A stretch of 45,098 nucleotides of DNA from Ignavibacteriota bacterium (lineage in GTDB: Bacteria; Bacteroidota; Ignavibacteria; Kapaibacteriales; UBA2268), in NCBI GenBank assembly GCA_024636855.1, contig JAGXGG010000093.1:1-45098 (forward strand). Reading direction: 5' to 3'. Under the pieces are notes generated by a model. The model had not been told where the DNA came from, ran no database searches, and saw only the letters and a list, made by a program, of their open reading frames with translations. Positions 19,830 to 23,816 of the stretch are shown here, in pieces. Every line of letters begins with the position of its first letter. Positions within the stretch are counted from its first letter, which is position 1. Position numbers and translations under genes: made by a program.

Positions 19830-20367
19830 AAGAATAGACGAAAAGTATAATGATTTGCCATTACCTAGCTATGCTACTGGTGGTTCGGCAGGTATGGATG
19901 TATATGCAACTACTGATGAGCCGATAACTATAAAGCATGGCGAAGTAAAGATGATACCTACTAATCTGGCTATTGCGCTGGAAAGTGGTTACGAATGTCA
20001 GGTACGTTCGCGTAGTGGATTAGCTGCTAAAAATGGCGTTTTTGCACTGAATGCACCCGGCACTGTTGATAGCGATTATCGTGGTGAGATAAAGATAATA
20101 CTTGCTAATTTTGGCGAAGCAGATTTCACTATCGAACGTGGAGATAGGATCGCTCAGTTAGTAATAGCACAGTACGAACATATTGGTTGGAACGAAGTCG
20201 AGTCTCTTGATGAGACTGACAGAGGAGAAGGCGGCTTCGGTAGTACGGGAGTGAAGAATGAGTCGTCCGAGAATAGTATTTATGGGAACTCCAGAGTTTT
20301 CTGTACCAACTTTGAAAGCGCTCCACGAGCATTTCGAGATACCAGCTGTGGTTACTGTTCCCGATAA
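19807..20367 (+). CDS. dut: dUTPase with C-terminal extension running into fmt
   Basis: Dut hydrolyses dUTP to dUMP and PPi, keeping uracil out of DNA and feeding dTMP synthesis. The conserved trimeric dUTPase motifs are all present: AGMDVYA (motif 1), RSRSGLA (2), GTVDSDYRGEI (3), RGDRIAQLVI (4) and the closing Gly-rich RGEGGFGSTG (5, near residues 139-148). The family normally stops within a few residues of motif 5. Here the frame stays open for about 37 more codons, overlapping fmt by 110 nt in a different frame; the added peptide is Ser/Cys/Arg-rich and resembles no domain. Start is ATG 19807, or ATG 19813 two codons later, inside the rsmI end. Confidence 0.93.
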   Translation: MIMKVKIRRIDEKYNDLPLPSYATGGSAGMDVYATTDEPITIKHGEVKMIPTNLAIALESGYECQVRSRSGLAAKNGVFALNAPGTVDSDYRGEIKIILANFGEADFTIERGDRIAQLVIAQYEHIGWNEVESLDETDRGEGGFGSTGVKNESSENSIYGNSRVFCTNFESAPRAFRDTSCGYCSR

Positions 20368-22146: not shown

Positions 22147-23019
22147 ATGAGAACTTATGCCATATTCGAAGCAATAGACAGACCCGAAGCTGAAGAGCTT
22201 GCCATTAAGGCAATTGAGATACTTCAGAGACTGGGAGCAAATGTCTGTGTTTCTGAGACATTGGTAAAAAAGTATGGCGATAGCATGCCTGATATTAGAG
22301 TATGCAATCGTTCGAGCTATGACGATATAGCTGATGTGATTATCACATTCGGCGGTGATGGTACTATACTATCAGCTGTCCAATCTTATATTACTTCCGA
22401 TGTTCCTATTATGGGATTCAATGTTGGGAAACTTGGTTTTCTAGCAGAGTTTATTGTAAACGGATTGGAAAGCACCCTCAAAGACTTGATGAATGGTAAT
22501 TATAAGGTTATCACTCGTTCGGCAATTGAAACTACTATAGATGGTGAGACTATCTATGCCCTCAATGATATGGTAATAGAGAAAAGTGAGACTTCGCACA
22601 TGGTGGAAATCAAAGCGTATTCTAACAAACACTTTATAGGTGAATACTTCGCTGATGGATTGATTATCTCTACTCCAACTGGCTCGACTGCATATAGTCT
22701 TTCTGCTGGAGGTCCAGTTATATTCCCAACTTCGCCAGTATTGTGTATCACACCAGTTTCACCTCACTCACTTACACATAGACCGCTAGTAGTACCAGAC
22801 AATCAGCAATTGGAATTCGAAGTTTATAGCAGAACAGGTGAGTTGAAATTAGTAGCTGATGGAAAAGTAAGAACAAAAATTAAAAATGGTGATATAATCC
22901 AGATAAGAAAATCGGACGAAACCGTTAAACTTGTAGAACCTGAGAATAGCACTTTCTTTGATGTACTTAGGGATAAATTTCTTTGGGCAGAACACAGAAC
23001 GAATAAGGAGATTAGATAA
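22147..23019 (+). CDS. nadK: NAD kinase
   Basis: NadK makes NADP from NAD and ATP (or polyphosphate). The 290-residue protein has the family signatures: FGGDGTILSAV (near 66-76), GFNVGKLGFLAEF, NDMVIEK, and the long SAM-like TPTGSTAYSLSAGGPV block, then ITPVSPHSLTHRPLVVPD. All catalytic elements (GGDG, NE/D, TPTGST) are intact. It lies 3 nt after pfkA, with which it shares the GGDG fold relationship, and its TAA stop overlaps the inferred AUC start of lgt by one base. Confidence 0.96.
   Translation: MRTYAIFEAIDRPEAEELAIKAIEILQRLGANVCVSETLVKKYGDSMPDIRVCNRSSYDDIADVIITFGGDGTILSAVQSYITSDVPIMGFNVGKLGFLAEFIVNGLESTLKDLMNGNYKVITRSAIETTIDGETIYALNDMVIEKSETSHMVEIKAYSNKHFIGEYFADGLIISTPTGSTAYSLSAGGPVIFPTSPVLCITPVSPHSLTHRPLVVPDNQQLEFEVYSRTGELKLVADGKVRTKIKNGDIIQIRKSDETVKLVEPENSTFFDVLRDKFLWAEHRTNKEIR
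23005..23010 (+). promoter_or_regulatory. Shine-Dalgarno that sets the lgt start
   Basis: AAGGAG lies inside the end of nadK, 8 nt before ATC at 23019. The spacing is ideal for initiation there. No ATG, GTG or TTG exists in the lgt frame until 23103, which would delete the conserved N-terminus, so this site argues for AUC initiation. Confidence 0.6.
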
Positions 23020-23816
23020 TCGAACATTTTATTGCATACATAGATTGGGCTGTTAGCCCTGATATAGTCGATTTTGGAATAATAAAAATACGTTGGTATG
23101 GGTTGTTGTTTGCGCTCTCTTTCGTTTTAGGTTATCAGATAATACATAAGATATTCAAACACGAAGGACACACTCAAAAGCAACTTGATTCATTAACAGT
23201 ATATATGATATTAGGGACCGTAATTGGTGCTCGGTTAGGGCATTGCTTCTTCTATGAGCCATCATATTACTTATCTAATCCTATAGAAATATTCAAAGTA
23301 TGGAACGGTGGGCTAGCAAGTCACGGTGCAGCAATAGGTATCCTAACTTCGCTCTATATATTCGCTCAAAAGAACAAAGAAATTTCGTATGCATGGATAG
23401 TTGATAGAATCGTTATAGTAGTTGCCTCAGCGGGTTTTTTCATTCGTTTGGGTAATTTCTTCAATTCAGAAATACTCGGATTACCTTCAGATTTGCCTTG
23501 GGCAGTCGTATTTCATAGAATAGATGAGATTGCACGTCATCCATCTCAAATGTACGAGGCAATAGCTTATTTGGGTATTTTCGCAGTACTTTGGGCACAC
23601 TATAGCAAATGGAAAGAGAAAACCGCTGATTACGCTTTATTCTCCAGATTCCTGATTATGATATTTAGTGCTCGATTTATCATCGAATTCACAAAAGAAA
23701 ACCAAACAGCATTCGAAAATGGCATGTTTCTGAACATGGGTCAGCTTCTTAGTATACCACTAATCATTTTAGGTGTAGTACTCCTGGTCAAATCAGCAGG
23801 CAAACAGAAAGCTTAG
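23019..23816 (+). CDS. lgt: prolipoprotein diacylglyceryl transferase, non-canonical start
   Basis: Lgt transfers diacylglycerol from phosphatidylglycerol to the lipobox Cys, the first step of lipoprotein maturation in the inner membrane. The conserved Lgt start (YIDWAVSPDI, then IRWYGLLFALSF) is encoded from 23037, so translation must begin upstream of the TTG at 23103. In frame after a TAG at 23013-23015 come ATA, ATC (23019), then ATT (23031). The ATC overlaps the nadK stop (TAATC) 8 nt after AAGGAG and is my choice. Essential residues are present: His in LASHGAAIG and Arg in FIRLGNFFNSE, plus RHPSQMYEA. About seven TM segments. Last gene of the rsmI operon. Confidence 0.92.
   Translation: MEHFIAYIDWAVSPDIVDFGIIKIRWYGLLFALSFVLGYQIIHKIFKHEGHTQKQLDSLTVYMILGTVIGARLGHCFFYEPSYYLSNPIEIFKVWNGGLASHGAAIGILTSLYIFAQKNKEISYAWIVDRIVIVVASAGFFIRLGNFFNSEILGLPSDLPWAVVFHRIDEIARHPSQMYEAIAYLGIFAVLWAHYSKWKEKTADYALFSRFLIMIFSARFIIEFTKENQTAFENGMFLNMGQLLSIPLIILGVVLLVKSAGKQKA

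Follow-up and report, generated by a model that had tools for sequence, protein, structure and literature searches.

The window analysed here is a 45,098-nucleotide stretch of DNA from an Ignavibacteriota bacterium (GCA_024636855.1, contig JAGXGG010000093.1), in which lgt, coding for prolipoprotein diacylglyceryl transferase, is the last gene of a tightly packed operon with the order dut-fmt-pfkA-nadK-lgt. The nadK ORF (nt 22147–23019, + strand), whose product matched the Pfam families NAD_kinase and NAD_kinase_C and the NCBIfam NAD kinase model, ends with a TAA stop codon (nt 23017–23019, + strand), and is followed by an intact lgt ORF of 265 codons plus stop (nt 23019–23816, + strand). In profile searches, the Lgt product scored 147.1 bits against TIGR00544 (cut-off 118.9), with nearly the whole protein covered, and 236.7 bits against PF01790 (cut-off 24.9). 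Alignment with the E. coli Lgt structure (5AZB) placed the RWYG, SHG and RLGNFFNSE motifs in register, and aligned counterparts were present for E. coli Y26, the HG motif, R143, N146 and E151. The gene occurs as one copy per genome in all four species of the genus, a search of these four genomes for a second intact copy having found none, and its pN/pS of 0.07–0.13 across the four species indicates that it is under purifying selection. Moreover, the adjacency of nadK and lgt is an ancestral trait of the family, and in other genera an ATG lies near or overlaps the nadK stop; some of the records at the family level bear the labels Candidatus Kapaibacterium and Ignavibacteria.

The lgt frame is closed by a TAG at nt 23013–23015 (+ strand; TAA in two congeners), and scanning it from this stop to the TTG at nt 23103–23105, the first standard start codon, did not retrieve any ATG, GTG or TTG. 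Re-reading of the coordinates is therefore in accordance with the original prediction that a standard start is absent back to the in-frame stop at nt 23013. Two near-cognate codons are found in this interval. The first, ATC (nt 23019–23021, + strand), invariant in the four species, overlaps the nadK stop by one nucleotide (UAAUC) and lies 8 nt past an AAGGAG motif (nt 23005–23010), at the positions previously reported; it is followed in frame by GAA CAT TTT ATT GCA TAC ATA GAT TGG, the last of these codons (nt 23046–23048) coding for Trp10. The second, ATA (nt 23016–23018, + strand), was absent from the original prediction; likewise conserved in the four species, it lies in the same frame 5 nt past AAGGAG, with a four-nucleotide overlap with the nadK stop (AUAA).

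The genus was sampled by four species-level genomes, namely the window's own and those of three congeners, with DNA identities to the window of 92, 86 and 84% at the nadK-lgt junction. All three congeners carry the window's AAGGAGATTA[A/G]ATAATCGAA at the junction, and a longer string, AAGGAGATTA[A/G]ATAATCGAACATTT, is common to all four species with the exception of the last T in G002, diverging one base later. Hence ATAATC is present in 4/4 species, in none of which (0/4) a standard start precedes Trp10, and the alignment of lgt starts from close relatives, which had been proposed as a check, retrieved ATC with its bases unchanged in each congener. The same check disposes of the alternative raised at the outset, that a base-call or assembly error turned ATG into ATC: apparent lesions do occur elsewhere in the window's assembly, but an error recurring as ATAATC in four genomes at this level of divergence is virtually inconceivable, and this reading was excluded.

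The lesions themselves are of several kinds. In the window, the dut frame is extended by about 37 codons and runs into fmt (nt 20250–20367); in the three congeners the dut stop overlaps the fmt ATG (ATGA), from which the window differs by one base, and the extension therefore reflects either a fault of the assembly or a lesion of recent origin. Elsewhere in the genome (G000), contig C92 carries an in-frame TAA within the conserved carA coding region (L168:3732–4700), intact in two congeners, as well as a D-Ala-D-Ala ligase gene with an in-frame TAG near the N-terminus, while a CorA gene (L160:15245) and a response regulator gene (L175:15369–16020) are apparently split by single-base frameshifts.

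As the original prediction had it, the conserved Lgt N-terminus is encoded upstream of the TTG at nt 23103. Across the four species, codons 2–28 of the lgt frame gave a pN of 0.063 and a pS of 0.473 (ratio 0.13), whereas the ratio was 1.53 in the +1 frame and the +2 frame was devoid of any synonymous change, thus indicating that these codons evolve as coding sequence. Trp10 is conserved in 24/24 family loci examined, which argues that translation begins upstream of it. When ATC is taken as residue 1, the window Lgt and E. coli Lgt (5AZB) share the same numbering at aligned position 13, the two N-termini being of equal length. A start further downstream, giving a shortened Lgt, could be envisaged at codon 12 (nt 23052–23054, + strand), where G002 has ATG and G001 has GTG, or at the TTG (nt 23103–23105, + strand). 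Codon 12, however, is GTT in the window and GTC in the remaining congener, and it stands behind the conserved Trp10 and N-terminus, while the TTG, located behind SP...RWYG, would remove this stretch together with the counterpart of E. coli Y26, a residue contacting the substrate lipid (PMC4728403). Furthermore, E. coli Lgt deprived of nine N-terminal residues is inactive (PMC4728403). Given the N-terminal conservation and these truncation data, downstream starts were ruled out as very improbable. A survey of start codons in 104 distinct lgt loci, drawn from public genomes as well as from the order, points in the same direction: all 100 loci outside the genus carry ATG (94), TTG (4) or GTG (2) 12 codons or more upstream of the tryptophan of RWYG. 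None of these 100 loci thus depends on a start downstream of the conserved WYG motif, the finding that had been named as capable of overturning the prediction.

We also considered whether nadK and lgt might be expressed as one product, by frameshifting or readthrough at the nadK stop, as the one-nucleotide gene overlap and the conservation of this layout in the genus might suggest. Nevertheless, the lgt frame is shut directly upstream by the TAG/TAA at nt 23013–23015, no slippery sequence is found between this stop and that of nadK, readthrough in the nadK frame soon reaches another stop, and relatives carry two separate ORFs. A fusion is thus extremely improbable, and it was ruled out on the closure of the lgt frame immediately upstream.

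On the aligned sequences, therefore, lgt lacks a standard start in all four species, and its translation would have to begin where nadK stops, at a near-cognate AUH codon. The proposal of an lgt start at AUC is supported, in that a start other than AUG, GUG or UUG is the only one fitting the conserved N-terminus; AUC over AUA is favoured but unproven. We consider it probable that ribosomes begin lgt, the last gene of its operon, at a near-cognate codon of this junction, and most likely at the AUC at nt 23019. The ATA consists wholly of nadK bases (the third base of the last codon and the TA of the stop), so that its conservation does not represent independent evidence; on the contrary, the TC of ATC is unconstrained by nadK and still invariant in the four species. 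Indeed, nadK and lgt together have 51 columns with conserved Ile, and an invariant ATC was found at one only, the candidate lgt start; of the Ile codons, ATC is the one least used by this genome. The spacing to Trp10 likewise favours ATC in this comparison: in the 24 family loci the ATG nearest to the conserved Trp lies 5 (4 loci), 8 (18 loci) or 9 (2 loci) codons before it, and never 10, whereas ATC lies 9 and ATA 10 codons before.

A start at AUA 23016, one residue longer and with a four-base overlap corresponding to the common AUGA, is possible although clearly less favoured. Natural AUA starts are known from S. aureus infC and ccpN, and the published natural near-cognate starts in bacteria consulted here are AUU or AUA (PMC13009471), which is a point against AUC, as is the equal conservation of ATA in the four species. 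In addition, relative L026 carries ATGATGGAA, with nadK ending in a TGA that overlaps the first ATG, in the same layout as ATAATCGAA. From this comparison, an ATGATGGAA-like arrangement may have become ATAATCGAA; under an AUA start, the G-to-A change converting the nadK TGA into TAA would also have converted AUG into AUA.

The AAGGAG motif (+ strand), formed by the codons AAG GAG of the nadK tail, is invariant in the four species, in each of which it is the sole copy in nadK and lgt and always lies at −14 from ATC. Its predicted duplex with the 16S tail (−8.2 kcal/mol) ranks in the top 4% of 254 ATG genes. In the 400 kb sampled from G000 (L157–L176 and the window), SD-like motifs were uncommon and sharply peaked at one register: a 6-mer SD was present at 4.7% of ATG genes, versus 1.3% in shuffles, and in SD-bearing ATG genes the first G of GGAGG was mostly at −10 (14 of about 37 matches). 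This sharp register suggests that SDs are genuinely used in this part of the Bacteroidota group, and SD pairing is thus probably used to some degree in this genome. The AAGGAG of lgt, originally described as a perfect Shine-Dalgarno, is good as a motif but not ideally placed, being 1–2 nt away from the preferred register, at −12 for ATC and at −9 for ATA. The latter, one off the genome peak, lends AUA some support; overall, the register does not separate the two codons.

The conserved AAGGAG probably helps the candidate lgt start. An intact anti-SD was found in the congener 16S tail. Since Bacteroidia sequester the anti-SD (PMC9976891), the help given to lgt may be weak. As a separate observation, rpsU (L182, L183, L184) has an apparent GTG start preceded by a long SD-like stretch, which in two species reads AGAGGTGATATC, a layout resembling that of Bacteroidota lineages with bS21 autoregulation (PMC9976891). 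As such a stretch is expected for bS21 autoregulation, this layout, together with the sequestration in Bacteroidia, renders the accessibility of the anti-SD uncertain. No special RNA structure was predicted at the nadK-lgt junction, with minimum free energies from −2.9 to −5.4 kcal/mol, ordinary for the genome.

A further explanation is that the whole genus tolerates non-standard starts through an altered initiation machinery, in line with a repeat family of exported-protein genes that also seems to be without an in-frame standard start. However, a search for a variant initiator tRNA or an odd infC start did not find either: the initiator tRNA that was found has a normal CAU anticodon and a normal GGG/CCC stem, and infC has an ATG start and a product of normal length. 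Junctions were scanned over about 400 kb of the window's genome plus congener contigs, about 500 kb together. In this sample, 34 stop-start junctions have ATG without a competing standard start, whereas ATC with no standard start nearby did not genuinely recur at any other junction, the only match, in corA, being a frameshift artefact. Altered machinery is accordingly regarded as highly unlikely. A genome-wide habit of non-standard starts was rejected on a coding-potential scan of about 400 kb of this genome: besides lgt it retrieved a single repeat family and false positives, together with a few genes that are interrupted in this assembly by frameshifts or in-frame stops. Considering the normal initiator tRNA, infC start and anti-SD, and the lack of any similar junction in the sampled ~500 kb, the cause of the non-standard lgt start is probably local.

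The repeat family consists of tandem repeats of small signal-peptide proteins (L171:11628–15300, on G000 contig C13; L186, L187 and L188 in congeners), with no Pfam match and with a shared conserved leader (L171:11632–11701) that includes a promoter of sigma-70-like type. ATG is absent from the signal-peptide frame. In another frame, an ATG begins a mini-ORF of three codons, and a single base separates its TAA from a conserved ATC AAA, so that either an AUC start following the mini-ORF or, at the second codon, a +1 frameshift would account for the arrangement. That the lineage has a dedicated mode of starting at AUC (or AUA) by reinitiation at stop codons, serving both lgt and this family (in which the shared promoter leader sets the mini-ORF AUG-GAU/GAA-UUA-UAA one base ahead of AUC-AAA, where the signal peptide begins), appears unlikely.

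For lgt itself, a ribosome finishing nadK at UAA would stay close to the junction, where the AAGGAG of the nadK tail would be available for pairing with its 16S tail, and fMet-tRNA (CAU) would pair with the first two bases of AUC, giving MEHFIAYIDW... We infer that the same ribosome reinitiates, and that SD pairing takes place in vivo, at lgt. Termination-reinitiation coupling at overlapping stop and start codons has been demonstrated elsewhere (PMC6728339). AUC, AUA and AUU are listed among bacterial start codons under IF3 discrimination (PMC4611024); because IF3 disfavours start codons without a 3' G, a low lgt output dependent on nadK translation would be expected. In S. aureus, reporters with near-cognate starts reached about 10–30% of AUG, i.e., a loss of roughly 70–90% (PMC13009471). 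It is a reasonable inference that the near-cognate start limits Lgt expression, with synthesis likely to be low and coupled to nadK.

Conserved near-cognate starts are few in number and invisible to gene finders, which would begin Lgt inside the first membrane helix, dropping residues needed for activity, or label lgt as broken. The lgt case suggests that some lineages may use a weak, nadK-coupled start to adjust how much of the first lipoprotein-processing enzyme is made. With a conserved AUC/AUA start joined directly to a stop codon, it also provides a clean system for asking whether ribosomes become less strict about start codons when they terminate.

Among known systems, E. coli infC and pcnB start at AUU. 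In S. aureus, near-cognate starts are used by infC (AUA), ccpN (AUA) and cvfC1 (AUU) (PMC13009471). As in these genes, the putative AUH start of lgt is kept across related species with an SD-like motif upstream; unlike them, lgt would use AUC (or AUA), belongs to the lipoprotein pathway, overlaps the stop codon of the preceding gene and comes from a lineage with few SD motifs. The 1-nt UAAUC or 4-nt AUAA overlap within an operon, with the SD inside the upstream gene, recalls termination-reinitiation pairs (AUGA, UGAUG/UAAUG; PMC6728339, PMC12548453), from which the putatively coupled nadK-lgt pair differs in that the overlapping codon is not AUG, GUG or UUG. An essential gene without a standard start, with its ATC inferred by alignment, has also been reported for L12ae of Staphylothermus marinus (PMC2678158), which unlike our case concerns an archaeon and a single species, the portion of that report used here describing no stop/start overlap. 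Near-cognate starts behind strong SDs are therefore already known, and the lgt case is unusual in its gene, its codon and its overlap geometry.
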